This document shows, in pieces, positions 2,636 through 42,108 of a stretch of 64,000 nucleotides of DNA. The stretch's first letter is position 1. The number at the start of each line of letters is the position of its first letter. Below the pieces are notes generated by a model. That model was not told the DNA's origin. It searched no databases and saw only the letters and a list, made by a program, of their open reading frames with translations. The DNA comes from Rhodohalobacter sulfatireducens (GTDB taxonomy: Bacteria; Bacteroidota; Rhodothermia; Balneolales; Balneolaceae), in the NCBI RefSeq assembly GCF_022012475.1, contig NZ_JAKLWS010000005.1, positions 62,001 to 126,000 on the forward strand. The letters run 5' to 3'. The position numbers and the translations under genes were made by a program.

Positions 2636-2700
2636 TTTTTACTGATTTTTTTCTTTTTACTGATTAATCCCGTTGTAACCCGGCAGATTCTTTGAACTAA

Positions 2701-3414
2701 TTAATCAAGATCATCTTTTGGACCACATACGGCTTTGAAGCCTTTCTTCCGTATCGTTCGAATATATTGAAAGTCTGAATGTTTCCTTATCTTCTTCCTC
2801 AAATAGCTTATGTAAACATTGATATAGTTCGTTTGGGTATTAAAATCGATGCCCCATACCTTTTCTGCTAACTCTTCTTGAGATACTGTTCTGCCGGAAT
2901 TACGAACCAGGTACACCAAAAGGTTGAACTCGCTGTTTGTGAGTTTAACCTCAGCGCCGTTTATTATCATTTTCCTTTCTATGAGATTAATTTTCATCTC
3001 ATGACATTCCAACTCGCTTTCGGAACTGTTATGTGAATTTGTTCTCCTGTGAATCGCCTCAATCCGTGCTAAAAGTTCTTCCACACTGAAGGGTTTTGTG
3101 AGGTAGTCATCAGCTCCAACATTTAGAACTCTTACTTTCATGTTGGTTTCCTGTTCGGCGGATAAGACTAAAATCGGAGTTGTTACATCATTTTCACGCA
3201 GATCTACACAGACATCATATCCGGTACCGTCCGGCAGTCGTAAATCAAGAACAATCATGTCGTAATCGTTCTTCATAGCTTTCTCTTTACCGGCTTTAGC
3301 AGAGTCTGCCTCAGCAATAATCCCTCCGTTATTTTCAAGAGCTTTTTTTACGAGTAGCCGAACAGTTGGATCATCTTCAACTACGAGAAACTTTAATCCT
3401 TCTAATTTTTCCAT
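2701..3414 (-). CDS. OmpR-family response regulator
   Basis: This 237-residue protein has a receiver domain (1-125) and a winged-helix DNA-binding domain (about 140-230). Acidic pocket residues D14 and D15, phosphoacceptor D57 (in VLDLRLPDG), S85 and K107 (LTKPF) are all present. The output domain shows the NSEFNLLVYLV and YINVYISYLRKKI helices of OmpR/PhoB proteins. No histidine kinase is adjacent, so it is an orphan whose partner lies elsewhere. Unlike many OmpR proteins it starts with a short extra MEKLEG segment. Confidence 0.9.
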   Translation of the reverse strand: MEKLEGLKFLVVEDDPTVRLLVKKALENNGGIIAEADSAKAGKEKAMKNDYDMIVLDLRLPDGTGYDVCVDLRENDVTTPILVLSAEQETNMKVRVLNVGADDYLTKPFSVEELLARIEAIHRRTNSHNSSESELECHEMKINLIERKMIINGAEVKLTNSEFNLLVYLVRNSGRTVSQEELAEKVWGIDFNTQTNYINVYISYLRKKIRKHSDFQYIRTIRKKGFKAVCGPKDDLD

Positions 3415-3459
3415 ATAATCATTGATGTTTTTATAGCACTGATGAACAGATTAGTTTAT

Positions 3460-4188
3460 CTATTTGATTGTGTTGAAAAGTCTATAGTTTTTGTTACTTA
3501 GCCATTCACAAATCAAACTGATGAACTCATCATTAAATCTATGTTTTTGGTCGATTAGTTTAAATTCTGCTGAAACATTGTGATTAATAAGCCTTTTAAT
3601 TTCGTTTCTTTGAGGCTGATAATCAACTAATTTATCGTGTTCCCCATGTAAAGCAAGTATATTTAAATGGGATATTAATTCCCATTTCTCTTCTAAAATT
3701 TCTGTTTTTATTCTCGCACCTGCAACAATTAATTCATTCACGAGTCTTGGTCTTGTTAATGAATAATATCCTGCAAGGTATCCCCCCATGGAATACCCAA
3801 TTAAGCAAGTTCTTTCAACTTTAATTGAGTTTTTGATTTCTTTAAGGATTTTATCAATAAAAACGGATGTCTGTTCAAGCGAACTCAGAAACTGTTCCTG
3901 TTCACCATCATACAGATACCAGGATGCTCCCCAGTCTTTAACTTTCTTTTTGCTTCGTCTGTCATAGATAGGATAAGGGCCCTGGATGAAAAGATGATAA
4001 GCTTCAACTTTATCAACTATTTCTGAGCATCTTTCACTAAATACTTCAAGATTATCTTTAAATCCATGCAGATAAAGGACAAGGGGTTTTTCTATTTTTT
4101 CAGTTCCAGTTTCATGTACTCTAAATGGAACATCATAGCAAAATGAGGATTTTCCTGAAATAAGAAATTCATCATTATTATCATTCAT
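3460..4188 (-). CDS. Alpha/beta-hydrolase, esterase-like
   Basis: The 242-residue protein has an alpha/beta-hydrolase core: the oxyanion strand LYLHGFKDN at about 38-46, the nucleophile elbow GYSMGG with Ser133, an acid in HGEHD (about D185) and His216 in QKHRF. The pattern resembles small carboxylesterases, dienelactone hydrolases and PHB-depolymerase-like esterases. No signal peptide is visible, so it is probably cytoplasmic. The substrate cannot be assigned. It lies 45 bp upstream of the response regulator gene on the same strand and may be co-transcribed with it. Confidence 0.75.
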   Translation of the reverse strand: MNDNNDEFLISGKSSFCYDVPFRVHETGTEKIEKPLVLYLHGFKDNLEVFSERCSEIVDKVEAYHLFIQGPYPIYDRRSKKKVKDWGASWYLYDGEQEQFLSSLEQTSVFIDKILKEIKNSIKVERTCLIGYSMGGYLAGYYSLTRPRLVNELIVAGARIKTEILEEKWELISHLNILALHGEHDKLVDYQPQRNEIKRLINHNVSAEFKLIDQKHRFNDEFISLICEWLSNKNYRLFNTIK

Positions 4189-4216
4189 TCTAAGTACAGT
4201 TATTTTGAAGAGGAGT

Positions 4217-4236
4217 GAATATTATTGATAATATTC
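4217..4236. repeat. Perfect palindrome upstream of the hydrolase gene
   Basis: GAATATTAT and ATAATATTC are separated by TG, giving a perfect 9+9 bp palindrome 28 bp upstream of the hydrolase start. It could be an operator or an mRNA hairpin. No T-tract follows on either strand, so it is not an obvious terminator. Confidence 0.45.
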
Positions 4237-38125: not shown

Positions 38126-38401
38126 ATGCGAACGACGATTGATTTACCGGATGAAATTTTGAAAAAAGCCAAAATGAAGGCTATCCAGGAGAATATTACT
38201 CTGAAAGAGCTCTTCATTCGAAGTCTCGAAAATGAATTTGACAGTGCCACTTCTGCACCGAAAATATCCAAAGCTCCCTGGGAAAAGTTGCGAGGAAAAG
38301 GTTCTGCTTCTAACCTCTCCCCCTCCGATTCCGGTTTCGAGGGATATTCCGGACCCGATTGGAATCATTCTATTGGTGTGAATGAACCCAAAAAGGATTG
38401 A
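38126..38401 (+). CDS. Ribbon-helix-helix antitoxin, VapB-like
   Basis: The 91-residue protein starts with RTTIDLPDEILKKAKMKA, a ribbon-helix-helix DNA-binding fold (about 1-40). The C-terminal half is unstructured and acidic/polar, as expected for the toxin-wrapping tail. It overlaps the downstream PIN-domain gene by 4 bp and is preceded by repeats suited to an operator. Together they form a type II toxin-antitoxin pair. Confidence 0.82.
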   Translation: MRTTIDLPDEILKKAKMKAIQENITLKELFIRSLENEFDSATSAPKISKAPWEKLRGKGSASNLSPSDSGFEGYSGPDWNHSIGVNEPKKD

Positions 38402-38796
38402 TTTTGCTGGATACACATATCTGGCTTTGGTGGTTATTGGGGGATGGAAATTTGTCATCACAAGAAATGAAAGGACTCGATATTAAAGCTTCTAAACAGG
38501 AACTTTCAATTTCATGGGTAACGATTTGGGAGACGGAAATGCTTGAAAGAAAACAACGAATATCTCTTCAGCCGAACTTTCAAACATGGATTCGCGAAGC
38601 CACCAACCCGTTATTTATAAGTATCTTACCAGTAGATATCGACGTTGTACTTGCACAACGAAATTTACCGACTGACTTTCCTGCTGATCCGGCCGATAGA
38701 CTGATTACCGCTACTTCACTCCTGGCAAAATATCCTCTTGCCACGCATGATCGCAGGATACTTGAATCCCAGCCATGTGAAATTTGGGAGGTTTAG
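38398..38796 (+). CDS. PIN-domain ribonuclease toxin, VapC-like
   Basis: The 132-residue protein has the PIN-domain acidic set: Asp5 in LLDTHIW, Glu in TIWETEML, Asp in DPADRLI and Asp in THDRRI. VapC toxins cleave tRNA or rRNA. The start is TTG at 38398, overlapping the antitoxin stop (TTGA), which enforces coupled translation. Copy 5 of the inverted-end element begins 7 bp after the stop. Confidence 0.85.
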   Translation: MILLDTHIWLWWLLGDGNLSSQEMKGLDIKASKQELSISWVTIWETEMLERKQRISLQPNFQTWIREATNPLFISILPVDIDVVLAQRNLPTDFPADPADRLITATSLLAKYPLATHDRRILESQPCEIWEV

Positions 38797-38803
38797 GCAT
38801 GAA

Positions 38804-38900
38804 AAACATGGTATGTCTCTTGCTAAAATGAATTACAGGTTAGACTACTAAATGATTGATCCGATCTGTTTCAGAGGCTTTATCCAGACATACCATGTTT
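38804..38900. repeat. Inverted-end element, copy 5 (97 bp)
   Basis: Both arms read AAACATGGTATGTCT (38804-38818; complement at 38886-38900), a perfect 15-bp match. Relative to the other copies the arms differ at several bases, but identically, so pairing is kept. It lies 7 bp after the vapC stop and 4 bp before the convergent Dph6-like gene's stop. Confidence 0.7.
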
Positions 38901-38904
38901 AGAC

Positions 38905-39615
38905 TTAACCAAGAACCAAATCACAAAATCGAAAAACCATCTTCCCCTCTCCTTTTGGTGATGGATACTCCTTATCCTCAATCTTTCCTTTTTGATGTGG
39001 AATTGATTCAGAAAAAATTGGTCCGCCAAACACAAATGTGTGGAATTCTCCATTTTCACCACATGGATCGATCTCTGCGGTCATTTCATCCAAAAACTCT
39101 TTTGAATATGTCTCACCTACATAATCAGAAACTGACTTTTTTTTTTCGACACAGGCAAAAATAGCTTTGAATCCGTCGTCAATAAATGAGTGAGCAAGCT
39201 TATCGGTATCTTCTCCCCAAATTGGAAAAAGTGCGTTCATTCCAACCTTTTCTAAATTCTTCTCTCTGTACTTCTTTAGGTCTTCCAAGAAAATATCTCC
39301 GAATGCGCAATGAGTGAAACCCTCTTCCATTAAGTTGTGCATCTGCTTTTCCATCAGGGAATTGTACTCATCCATTGATGGACTTGCAGAAAGCTTCAGG
39401 TAAGTGATTGGTATACCGAGAATCTCAGCCTGCCTCTCGATCAATTCCACGCGAACGCCATGCATTGAAACACGTTTTGTTGATTCATTCACTGAAACTA
39501 ACAACCGTTCAACAGAATACTGATTATTCTTCAACAATCTTTGATGAGTAATCGCACTGTCTTTTCCGCCGCTCCAGCTTAGAATCGTTTTATATTTGGA
39601 TGAACTAATGTTCAA
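38905..39615 (-). CDS. Dph6-related ATP pyrophosphatase (diphthine-ammonia-ligase family)
   Basis: The 236-residue protein has the PP-loop SGGKDS at 15-20, the MHGVRVELIERQAEILGIP and GDIFLEDLKKYRE blocks and the IDPCGENGEFHTFVF motif of Dph6-type ATP pyrophosphatases. Diphthamide does not exist in bacteria, so the true substrate here is not diphthine. It follows btuB on the same strand behind a cobalamin riboswitch, which suggests a cobamide-related amidation. The start is TTG; no upstream ATG fits. A strong palindrome lies between it and btuB. Confidence 0.8.
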   Translation of the reverse strand: MNISSSKYKTILSWSGGKDSAITHQRLLKNNQYSVERLLVSVNESTKRVSMHGVRVELIERQAEILGIPITYLKLSASPSMDEYNSLMEKQMHNLMEEGFTHCAFGDIFLEDLKKYREKNLEKVGMNALFPIWGEDTDKLAHSFIDDGFKAIFACVEKKKSVSDYVGETYSKEFLDEMTAEIDPCGENGEFHTFVFGGPIFSESIPHQKGKIEDKEYPSPKGEGKMVFRFCDLVLG

Positions 39616-39635
39616 ACATTCTCTAGTTAAAGTTT

Positions 39636-39670
39636 AAGATCCGCGAAGTATCTGAAACTTCGCGGATCTT
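39636..39670 (-). terminator. Strong palindrome between btuB and the Dph6-like gene
   Basis: AAGATCCGCGAAGT (39636-39649) pairs with ACTTCGCGGATCTT (39657-39670), a perfect 14-bp stem with a short loop. On the minus strand it is followed by AAACTTTAACT, a poor U-tract. It may be a weak terminator, an mRNA-processing stem or a REP-like sequence. Confidence 0.5.
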
Positions 39671-39675
39671 AGAAA

Positions 39676-41583
39676 TTACAATGTAAACCGAACTCCTGCC
39701 CTAGCATGTAGTCCCATGGTGTTATACCCATAGACTTCAGTAAAGTCTGAATCAATCAGGTTTCGAACAGTTCCAAAAATTGTAAATGAACGATCAAAAA
39801 CCGCATACTCGGCATATAAATTTGCAATCACATATGAATCCAAACTTACCTCCTCGGAGGTATAATTGTTGGCGGGGTTGAAAAACAGATCGGTCCGATC
39901 ACCGGCAAACTCTCCATCAATTTTAACCAACAATCCATTTTCAAAACGATACGATGCATTCAGGCCAAAATTATGATTTGGCAATCGAATCAAACCAATA
40001 CTGGACTGTTCAGCGCCCGCATCATTCAGTGTAATTGTTTCTCCATCCAAGTAGTTATAAAAAGCGCCAAGCGTTAAATCATTTGTAGCAAGCCAGTTTG
40101 TTCGAATTTCAACCCCTTGGGTTTCCACTCGATCCCGGTTGATATATCCGTTTGAAGTGAATGCAATTAGATTGTCAATCTCACGATCAAAGTAATGAGT
40201 CTCGATTTTTAAACTTTGATCTAACAGGTAAGTCTCAAATCCCACCTGGATGCTTCGGCTCTCTTCCGGCTCCAGGTCCGGATTTGCACCAAACTGACCA
40301 AAAAGCTGATCTATTGTTGGCGCTTTAAAGCCGGTACCGATCGAAGCAAAAAGTTTAAAACTATTATTGATCTGGTACGACGGGGAAAAACTGTAGGTTG
40401 AATTTGTACCATACTCGGAATGGATATTCGCCCTGTATCCGGCTTCAGCACGTAATCCATTACCCGCGTCTAAGAGTAGAGTGCCATAGGGACTGGTAAA
40501 CGAAGTGGAGATTTCTGAGATTTGATTCTCTTCATCTTCCGGTCTCAGCCCCTCCTGCCAGTTTATCCCGGCCATGATATTCAGGGTTGGATTAAAACGG
40601 TAATTCAAGAATGTGTCGAAATTTTGAAAGCGCCCGTCAAGTGCTGTCTCACCAAATTCACTCGAAAAAATGCGCTCGGTCTCTGTAATCAAATAGGTTG
40701 AGTTGATATTGAAATCACCACTTTCAAAAATTGCCTGTAATCCGGGATTCCACATGTTATTTGTAAATGTATTGGAAGCATCCACAAAGGCGTCTGCGTC
40801 GTAATCTCCTTCAAAATCTGAATACTTTACAAATGGTTTGATTTTCAATCCTTCTACCGGCTCAATCGCCACATTCACATAGAAGGAATTTTGTGAATAC
40901 CCATCGTTTTGAAAAGTGTCTGAACCTTTGGGTGTAGCCGCCGCACTGATACCATCGCTCGATTTATGATTGTATCCTAACGAATAACTAAGCACATCAT
41001 TCACAGATCCGCTGATATCACCCGCTCCTTTAAACGAATTATAGGCTCCGTATTCAACAGTCCCAGAGGGTTGAAAGGTGCTTTCTGAAGTGCTTTTGGT
41101 GATAATGTTGATCACCCCGGCAAGAGCACTAGAGCCATATAAAGTGGATTGATTTCCTTTCAAAATTTCAATCCGCTCTACATTTTGAAGCGGCAAAAGT
41201 CGCAAATCAATGGCACCGCCAATCCCGGACGCATCACTGACCGCTACGCCATCCAATAAAATTAACGTATACTCCGTACTGGCACCTTGTAAAAAAAGGT
41301 CTTGGTTATTTGCCGGTGAGCCCTGCGAATTATTGATTCGTATACCACTCTGCTCATGCAGCAATTGTGCAAGATTACTTCCCGAACTTTCCTCTATCTC
41401 TTTCCGGTCGATAATTGTAACAGGACGTGATGTTTCCCGGGGTGAAATGGGAAGTTTAGAAGCTTGGATTACGATCTCCTCAAATTGAAGAGTTGTATCC
41501 GCTTGTTGAGATGTGGTTTGTGCTTGAAGTGAAGAGGCACACAAAAAAGCCCCAATTACTAGAGTTATGAACTGTTTGCTCAT
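39676..41583 (-). CDS. btuB: TonB-dependent receptor, BtuB-like vitamin B12 transporter
   Basis: The 635-residue protein has a signal peptide (MSKQFITLVIGAFLCASSLQAQ), a plug domain (about 45-150, with SRPVTIIDRKEIEES and LILLDGVAVSD) and a C-terminal beta-barrel ending in aromatic ARAGVRFTL. The EEIVIQASK stretch may be the TonB box. A cobalamin riboswitch directly upstream makes B12 the probable substrate. TonB and the BtuCDF pump are not in this window. Confidence 0.9.
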   Translation of the reverse strand: MSKQFITLVIGAFLCASSLQAQTTSQQADTTLQFEEIVIQASKLPISPRETSRPVTIIDRKEIEESSGSNLAQLLHEQSGIRINNSQGSPANNQDLFLQGASTEYTLILLDGVAVSDASGIGGAIDLRLLPLQNVERIEILKGNQSTLYGSSALAGVINIITKSTSESTFQPSGTVEYGAYNSFKGAGDISGSVNDVLSYSLGYNHKSSDGISAAATPKGSDTFQNDGYSQNSFYVNVAIEPVEGLKIKPFVKYSDFEGDYDADAFVDASNTFTNNMWNPGLQAIFESGDFNINSTYLITETERIFSSEFGETALDGRFQNFDTFLNYRFNPTLNIMAGINWQEGLRPEDEENQISEISTSFTSPYGTLLLDAGNGLRAEAGYRANIHSEYGTNSTYSFSPSYQINNSFKLFASIGTGFKAPTIDQLFGQFGANPDLEPEESRSIQVGFETYLLDQSLKIETHYFDREIDNLIAFTSNGYINRDRVETQGVEIRTNWLATNDLTLGAFYNYLDGETITLNDAGAEQSSIGLIRLPNHNFGLNASYRFENGLLVKIDGEFAGDRTDLFFNPANNYTSEEVSLDSYVIANLYAEYAVFDRSFTIFGTVRNLIDSDFTEVYGYNTMGLHARAGVRFTL

Positions 41584-41711
41584 GGTTTTTTATAAATGTA
41601 TTTAAAATTAAACCGATGAGCTTCCGATGAAAAAAGGTTGGGGATATATAGAATCTTCATACATGATTCTCTATTCCCGGCTCTTCCTCCGAAAGCCTGA
41701 ATAATTAAAGG

Positions 41712-41925
41712 CAAACAGGCAGGTCTTCTGACTTACTCAATGCTGGCTGCCTTCCCGTCCCGAACCGCCTGGACAGTGGCATCGTAAGGCCAGCAATAAT
41801 TGAGCTTACAGCTACGGGGATAGTTCCGGATTTCCCATCCTTCTCCGTCAGCCGACGGATTCAGAAGACAAGGCACCGGATTCCCTTTTCAACCCGATCA
41901 TAAATCGGGTACCTGTTGCTAAACT
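41712..41925 (-). promoter_or_regulatory. Cobalamin riboswitch upstream of btuB
   Basis: On the minus strand the leader has the conserved elements of the class: GGGAATCCGGTGC, a CCCCGTAGCTGTAAG stretch, the B12-box core GCCACTG (41774-41780), GGGAAGGC and AGTCAGAAGACCTGCC (41718-41733). Cobalamin binding represses btuB-type genes in known cases. Edges are approximate. It lies about 130 bp before the btuB start. Confidence 0.95.
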
Positions 41926-42108
41926 CATGGTAAGCTGATTATTAGCGGAAGTCAACAATACTTTTTGACTGTTTTCTTTTTGATTTTCGTTTATTTAGTA
42001 GGCATCATTGAAACAAGTCATCTGATGAGTACACAGGTCAAAGTTTACACATGAAAGCTTTCTGACTCATCGGATGATTTCTCAATTTTAAACGATAAAG
42101 CATCAACG

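Follow-up and report, generated by a model that had tools for sequence, protein, structure and literature searches.

A DUF71-B12 ATPase gene behind a riboswitch-led btuB-like gene in Rhodohalobacter sulfatireducens: a candidate function in B12 uptake and use

Proteins of the DUF71 family (COG2102) have been divided into two subgroups, Dph6 with the motif EGGE/DxE and DUF71-B12 with the motif ENGEF/YH (de Crecy-Lagard et al. 2012, PMC3541065). According to the same paper, diphthamide does not occur in bacteria. Genes of the DUF71-B12 subgroup adjoin B12 transporter genes in 75 of 102 cases and cbiB in 18 of 102, and it was proposed that DUF71-B12 stands in for CbiZ, supplying cobyric acid to CbiB. 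A B12-salvage role of bacterial DUF71 is already in print, as this prediction of 2012; a table in a 2016 review gives the entry 'function unknown, B12 salvage' (PMC5041015). Searches of the open-licence literature, including the available text of PMC8305020, PMC5041015, and PMC5481537, turned up no experiment on this subgroup. The 2012 paper did not settle the role of these bacterial look-alikes of Dph6, many of which are still entered in plasmid records as diphthine-ammonia ligase. Another gene of B12 uptake to be compared is that of BtuX (BT_1949) in Bacteroides thetaiotaomicron, the only newly named btu-operon gene whose product is not a predicted lipoprotein; its operon is riboswitch-controlled, and the protein is 5.8-fold up in methionine over B12 (PMC12751083). 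The present analysis concerns a DUF71 gene in a stretch of 64,000 nucleotides from Rhodohalobacter sulfatireducens (Balneolaceae; contig NZ_JAKLWS010000005.1, positions 62,001 to 126,000), referred to below as the window.

The window carries, in minus-strand order, a cobalamin riboswitch, a btuB-like gene, and a PF01902 gene (Table 1). An earlier reading of this DNA, made from its letters without database searches, had described a clear cobalamin riboswitch ahead of btuB and, 60 bp further on the same strand, a Dph6-related gene. Both are borne out. The riboswitch, which is the sole Rfam match at the gathering threshold within the 64 kb, covers the full length of its model and far exceeds the gathering score of 31.5, and the protein encoded beyond the 60-nt gap (39616-39675) matches PF01902 at 122.5 bits against a curated cut-off of 23.2 (E 2.4e-35). 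The receptor has the TonB plug and barrel domains (Pfam). Its top NCBIfam model is TIGR01779 (TonB-B12; E 5.6e-75), with a score of 253.1 bits that lies below the equivalog cut-off of 599.7, and it is named btuB-like because of the riboswitch leader.

Table 1. Features of the btuB-DUF71 locus, in positions of the window
Feature	Position	Strand	Basis
Cobalamin riboswitch, btuB leader	41701-41931	(-)	RF00174, 110.6 bits, E 7.8e-27, full model 1-189
btuB-like TonB-dependent B12 receptor gene, 635 aa	39676-41583	(-)	PF00593 + PF07715, TIGR01779, riboswitch leader
Hairpin past the btuB stop codon, member of a dispersed family	39636-39670	unassigned (.)	Fold, genome copies, compensatory pairs
DUF71-B12 gene with TTG start, encoding a PP-loop ATPase of predicted Dph6 fold (236 aa)	38905-39615	(-)	PF01902, SGGKDS and GENGEFH motifs, AlphaFold2 model

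The sequence-only reading also held that a bacterial member of this family must do something other than diphthamide synthesis, and the family searches agree. The protein keeps the PP loop (W-SGGKDS, residues 14-20), and GENGEFHTF at residues 186-194 aligns with GEGGEFETF of the Dph6 structure 3rjz, so that ENGEFH stands where Dph6 has EGGE/DxE. The score against the Dph6 equivalog TIGR03679 (Dph6_archaeal) is 75.3 bits, below the cut-off of 197.3. Judged by these sequence features, the protein belongs to the published DUF71-B12 subgroup. An AlphaFold2 model (mean pLDDT 96.1, alignment of 37 sequences) has as its top matches in the PDB the archaeal structures 2d13 (PH1257) and 3rjz and 3rk1 (PF0828), with TM-scores by query length of 0.74 to 2d13_A and 0.73 to 3rk1_A and an identity of 20-23% in the structural matches. 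The fold, as predicted, is that of Dph6.

The family was followed through a draw of 198 genomes from the phylum, each with a completeness of at least 90; comparisons among them are uncorrected for kinship. PF01902 is found above its cut-off in 50 of these genomes, a match in genome G140 below the family cut-off being excluded. For 51 sites, the flanking sequence was fetched to about 8 kb in either direction, or to a shorter distance where a contig ended, and the window makes a 52nd site. Conservation was counted on the 51 proteins of this draw only, which were found by Pfam and not by motif, include that of the window, and omit the frameshifted L064. In all of them S15, K18, D19, D107, D183, E187, and H192 are invariant; G17 is kept in 50 and C185 in 48. 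The aligned Dph6 PDB chain has Ala and Glu at the places of C185 and H192.

Most of the proteins, the window's included, form group A, with about 240 residues and the stretches SMHGVR and FGDIFLEDLR. Group B, with about 215 residues and the stretches SRSHGIP and FGDIDL, is formed by L032, L033, and L043, where L numbers denote loci. Two of the group B genes (L032 and L043) sit in cobU-DUF71-cobT-cobS-cobC clusters, in which cobU, cobT, and cobC of L032 are typed by Pfam and the remainder by phmmer. Both groups co-occur in genomes G057 and G084. Three proteins (L069, L080, and L081) match neither group well and have no B12 neighbour by the labels used. The nearest neighbours of the window protein on the protein tree come from a same-genus genome and from a metagenome-assembled genome (MAG) named Balneolaceae.

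The surroundings of these genes tie the family to B12 well beyond the window. A cobalamin riboswitch lies within 8 kb of 18 of the 52 phylum sites, spanning 8 family groups, where about 0.4 would be expected on the round estimate of 1.7 riboswitches per 3.6 Mb; this is the co-occurrence across genomes that the sequence-only reading had proposed as a check. The sample was widened by 80 further relatives, the best 80 of at least 593 matches to the pattern CGE[NYH]GE[FY]H. A profile made from 15 riboswitches has matches in 46 of the 131 loci (51 phylum and 80 relatives) and none in the reversed sequences; 14 of the 46 had contributed to the profile, having been found earlier by RF00174 in whole genomes. 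Rfam confirms the riboswitch in all nine loci submitted, a selection of weak or important ones. A riboswitch heads a same-strand run bearing DUF71, or lies near its head, in 28 of 126 loci, 13 of which are in the phylum draw (L086 duplicates L040). These operon calls cover 126 of 132 loci and 46 of the 52 phylum sites, the six left out (L061, L068, L069, L072, L078, and L079) all being from the phylum draw. In three loci, L041, L114 (Flavobacterium rakeshii), and L120 (F. beibuense), the riboswitch stands directly ahead of DUF71 with no gene between; all three are among the nine that Rfam confirmed.

The partners of DUF71 differ by lineage. They are btuB alone; btuB with DUF6580, BtuF, and SIR2; btuFCD; a DUF5074 protein, which we take to be BtuG-like; or a fusion of a methylmalonyl-CoA-mutase-family protein with MeaB, which DUF71 follows in L083 and L031. 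This fusion is labelled by frame length or locus in 8 rows of the tree, and only L083 and L031 are Pfam-typed; the 1139-aa neighbour in L104 is a helicase by Pfam and is not counted. Neighbour labels come from single-sequence phmmer, in which 'BtuD' also picks up ftsE of the window, and labels far from DUF71 may err. The tree has 129 rows, with L064 and the repeats L086 (of L040) and L124 (of L048) dropped, both repeats being retained in the 131 loci of the profile count. To explain the B12 context on this tree takes 15 changes or more, and loci with and without it are mixed among each other. Because the partners vary and the B12 context is scattered over the tree, a shared B12 role with changing neighbours fits better than one frozen gene order. 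We regard a link of the DUF71 gene to B12 as very likely.

The pathway genes found together with DUF71 bear on what this link could be. The genome of the window encodes a PduO-type adenosyltransferase, NrdJ, and methylmalonyl-CoA mutase, as well as a 1159-aa mutase-family frame that is IcmF-like by length, and it has one cobalamin riboswitch among the matches listed by a whole-genome RF00174 search with strict filters. The searches gave no match for CbiB, CbiZ, or CobS in this genome. Its marker genes suggest a host that imports and consumes B12 and, by the three markers just named, has no means of turning cobyric acid or cobinamide back into a cobamide. The 50 DUF71 genomes of the phylum draw resemble it: CbiB is found in none and CobS in nine (41 are without), and PduO is found in 49. 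CbiZ is also found in none, and since it occurs in only 7 of the 198 genomes overall, its exclusion is not significant (Fisher p 0.19). Among the 38 genomes with CbiB, seven have CbiZ, none has DUF71, and 31 have neither, which departs from the published rule that CbiZ or DUF71-B12 accompanies CbiB. As 34 of the 38 belong to one family, the disjointness of CbiB and DUF71 is not statistically independent, and the stronger point is that DUF71 genomes lack CbiB and CobS at the frequencies given.

Two other roles in B12 metabolism can be set aside. Substitution for a PduO-type adenosyltransferase is ruled out by the presence of PduO in 49 of the 50 DUF71 genomes (the CobA type was not searched), and a link to the B12-dependent ribonucleotide reductase is ruled out by the presence of NrdJ in 45 of 49 class-level genomes regardless of DUF71. 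All 49 class-level genomes have mutase-family genes, whether or not they have DUF71. In Balneolaceae that lack DUF71, no enzyme that looks like a substitute was seen behind btuB; in several of them a DUF5074 protein is encoded there, followed by NrdJ. As a separate observation, NrdJ follows the receptor gene, often past a DUF5074 protein, in 13 Balneolaceae-family riboswitch loci (L162-L170, L174-L176, and L180), recognised by a PF08471 match and in L162 also Pfam-typed. In L173, L177, and L179, the first genes after the cobalamin riboswitch encode 327-328 aa and 815-841 aa; in L173 Pfam assigns them to the small and the large subunit of a class I ribonucleotide reductase, a B12-independent counterpart of NrdJ.

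The best overall explanation, to which we give a probability of roughly 0.4, is that the DUF71-B12 enzyme serves the cell's B12 uptake and use by acting on the whole imported corrinoid, most likely by re-amidation. Its substrate would be an imported, essentially complete corrinoid and not a precursor. Using ATP, the enzyme would activate a side-chain carboxylate of the corrinoid, in the way that Dph6 activates diphthine, and convert it to an amide, so that cobamides short of a side-chain amide would be mended. We infer action on whole imported B12 because this genome and its DUF71 relatives are without the genes for the later steps on which the published proposal depends; substrate, ligation, and repair are likewise inferred. 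ATP-driven ligation is easier to explain than hydrolysis, since the ATP loop is kept, and amidation of a carboxylate seems the most plausible ligation in view of the ATP site of an amide ligase, the setting of B12 uptake, and the need for a whole cobamide. The amidation chemistry is the least certain step, and taken by itself it is doubtful. A more pointed version, in which group A would be a cobamide repair ligase that restores lost side-chain amides in import-only bacteria and is riboswitch-controlled in some lineages, is quite unlikely as a whole. The sequence-only reading had suggested an ATP-dependent amidation in cobamide salvage. Its B12 part now extends beyond this locus, amidation is a candidate reaction, and 'cobamide precursors' as substrates fit poorly, because the genome has no CobS or CbiB match to finish a precursor; for this genome, salvage of precursors is contradicted by these missing genes.

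Several observations weigh against action on an imported corrinoid, or against its generality. No labelled B12 neighbour is found in 31 of the 51 usable phylum-draw loci. A riboswitch is found in only one of nine regions from plasmid- and phage-collection records (24 records matched), namely L196, where it is on the opposite strand, and no annotated B12 gene stands beside DUF71 in the Meiothermus, Cetobacterium, Allomeiothermus, and Aureibacter regions. DUF71 occurs in 50 of 198 genomes and cobalamin riboswitches in 194 of 198 (among the matches listed, with strict filters); the DUF71 step is therefore dispensable, since most riboswitch-bearing genomes are without it. Among the papers listed by a literature search, none gave a natural substrate for the proposed repair or an enzyme with that role. 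Finally, DUF71-B12 has a His in place of the presumed catalytic Glu of Dph6, and its chemistry may differ accordingly.

To judge from residue conservation, the Cys-His pair that replaces the Ala-Glu of Dph6 may permit different chemistry, either on the cobalt or on the carboxylate. This is the starting point of the best placed alternative, in which the protein would handle cobamides without amidation, for example by stripping or swapping a cobalt ligand, by helping with loading, or as a chaperone that uses ATP and works between uptake, adenosyltransferase, and mutases, and Cys and His could bind cobalt. The near-invariance of the two residues (C185 in 48 and H192 in 51 of 51) and the position of DUF71 after the mutase-MeaB fusion in L083 and L031 are in line with it. 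However, C185 is replaced by Ala in L059, which itself lies in a riboswitch-btuB-DUF71 run, the prevalence of PduO means that DUF71 is no replacement for that adenosyltransferase, and the idea of cobalt binding draws on conservation alone. We consider this alternative unlikely.

Less likely again is the proposal of 2012, by which unsuitable cobamides such as pseudo-B12 would be cleaved in the manner of CbiZ to cobyric acid and rebuilt by CbiB and the nucleotide-loop enzymes. It is in keeping with the published anti-correlation with CbiZ and the adjacency of cbiB in 18 of 102 cases (PMC3541065), with the cob clusters of group B in L032 and L043, and with the lack of CbiZ in all 50 DUF71 genomes, as the proposal expects. 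It has to contend with the lack of CbiB in the same 50 genomes, the lack of CobS in 41 of them, and the lack of both in the genome of the window, where such cleavage would waste the vitamin because, with no CbiB or CobS match, cobyric acid is a dead end. The 31 of 38 CbiB genomes with neither CbiZ nor DUF71 also differ from the published rule, and a hydrolase with an intact ATP loop would be odd, a point made as well by a reviewer of the 2012 paper (PMC3541065).

A third alternative is modification of a protein, as Dph6 acts on EF-2, the target being for example a B12-dependent mutase or a component of uptake. The predicted Dph6 fold and the adjacency of the mutase fusion in part of the tree would suit such an activity. 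The partners, however, vary by lineage with B12 as the common element, and the mutase-family genes are present in the class-level genomes regardless of DUF71; we hold this to be improbable.

Whether btuB and DUF71 are transcribed together bears on the remaining alternative, that the gene is unrelated to B12 and stands behind btuB by chance, with a promoter of its own. A strong palindrome between the two genes had led the sequence-only reading to weaken its operon claim, and this caution was sound, as the palindrome is a recurrent hairpin of this genome found mostly just past stop codons. It has a 15-pair stem of -24.7 kcal/mol as minus-strand RNA, and none of 200 shuffles folds as well. The hairpin family, GATCCGCGAAGT-loop-ACTTCGCGGATC, has 11 sites in the genome (the window's included) when up to 3 mismatches are allowed, where the backward pattern has none, and one additional copy has a longer loop. 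At six of nine inspected sites, that of the window among them, the hairpin begins 8-15 nt past a stop codon, which it does not at the other three, and variant copies retain the stem through paired changes. It is a dispersed hairpin and probably a terminator, despite its poor U tract. In a sister species (L067) the gap holds a different hairpin with a T run, which folds only moderately better than shuffled sequence (z -2.8, 2 of 200 shuffles as good). A promoter scan of the 60-nt gap, covering the sigma-70 type, found none.

In other lineages the two genes are closer. A btuB directly 5' of DUF71 on the same strand is found in 13 distinct loci, with a gap, measured to the longest open frame, of 0-28 nt in seven (L033, L040, L051, L102, L113, L126, and L132), an overlap in one (L095), and 60-237 nt in five, the window's included. 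Because the gap length differs by locus and hairpins are present here, co-transcription is likely for some members of the family, but for this genus it is doubtful; the operon is thus well supported in several other lineages and not in the one for which it was proposed. The same-genus genome G119 has the riboswitch and btuB and no DUF71 at this position (L178), nor elsewhere in the genome. This absence, the hairpins of the two species, and the many loci without a labelled B12 neighbour are what chance placement would lead one to expect. Against it stand the short gaps and the overlap, the three loci with a riboswitch directly ahead of DUF71, and the riboswitches near 18 of 52 sites, so that chance is an improbable explanation too. 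That the protein is a true diphthine-ammonia ligase is practically untenable: some relatives bear the name 'diphthine--ammonia ligase' in databases and the fold is the same, but the TIGR03679 score falls far short, ENGEFH replaces EGGE/DxE, and bacteria are without diphthamide (PMC3541065).

On the 3' side of the DUF71 gene, the opposite strand carries a PIN-domain gene, a small gene, and then an ABC-ATPase gene, which presumably is ftsE. The small gene (91 aa, without a Pfam match) overlaps the PIN gene (PF01850, 35.7 bits) at 38126-38796 (+), and the two, which are convergent with DUF71, look like a toxin-antitoxin pair of the VapBC type. A perfect 15-nt inverted repeat (38804-38818 and 38886-38900, with 67 nt between the arms) separates the PIN gene from the end of DUF71 and may be a terminator used by both genes or mark the boundary of an inserted module. 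PADLOC gave no match, and a defence role is set aside.

Further genes recur near DUF71 in other genomes. A SIR2-family gene lies beside or near it in the riboswitch-btuB loci L056, L058, and L059 (by Pfam) and L062, L133, and L143 (by phmmer). Small Cys-rich open reading frames (CxxC...FxC...CxC) are found less than 1 kb upstream of DUF71 in L032, L043, L091, L097, L116, L150, and L152; the pattern has 10 matches in 132 loci, the remaining three far from DUF71. In an Aureibacter plasmid, a DUF5522 gene lies directly 3' of DUF71 (L198, 5636-6001). A small Cys-rich or DUF5522 product is a possible partner of DUF71. In 12 loci, mostly of Flavobacteriaceae (L055, L093, L106, L107, L109, L118, L122, L130, L131, L140, L156, and L157), DUF71 comes after a 475-511-aa gene, which in L118 is an S41 peptidase. 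A cobalamin riboswitch lies 2.7-4.1 kb further along on the opposite strand, and in 11 of the 12 a gene labelled btuB is close by. Three MAGs labelled Candidatus Omnitrophota (L110, L132, and L147) carry a DUF71 like that of the window, adjoining btuB in two, which reflects either transfer or mis-binning. The plasmid- and phage-collection region L196 is an unverified 'bacteriophage' scaffold from human faeces, with DUF71 at 3100-4230 (+), the motif GENGEYH, and the riboswitch just upstream at 2693-2876 (-); it is probably bacterial DNA.

For the DUF71 genomes of the phylum draw, this distribution removes the idea that the enzyme feeds CbiB and narrows its reaction to one that is useful to a B12-importing cell. 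The lineages in which a riboswitch directly precedes DUF71, two Flavobacterium species among them, look like good study systems.

Among the described systems, BtuX is likened to the DUF71 gene by description only, as a non-lipoprotein of a btu operon. BtuX may or may not itself be a DUF71 protein; PF01902 was found in none of 67 genomes of one family (f18, two genera) and not in the control Bacteroides ihuae. CbiZ (adenosylcobinamide amidohydrolase) and CbiR (a cobamide-remodelling hydrolase) also serve B12 salvage or remodelling, and some of their genes lie beside transport genes (PMC7733943). Their families are unrelated to DUF71, and the present host has no match for CobS or CbiB. Neither enzyme is known to use ATP, and rebuilding needs CobS and, for CbiZ, also CbiB. 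Dph6 (PF0828, 3rk1 and 3rjz; PH1257, 2d13) shares with the window protein the fold, as modelled, and the SGGKDS loop; the two differ in the His that replaces the Glu of the catalytic motif, in sequence (20-23% identity), and in the host, bacteria being without diphthamide. The closest system is the DUF71-B12 subgroup of 2012. There the partners named are BtuCDF and cbiB, in a text that has no mention of btuB or riboswitch (PMC3541065), whereas in the window the partner is a riboswitch-controlled btuB, in a genome which, unlike the published co-distribution, has no match for CbiB, CbiZ, or CobS. What the window gene shares with that subgroup is PF01902 itself, the PP loop, the ENGEF/YH motif, and a neighbour in B12 transport.

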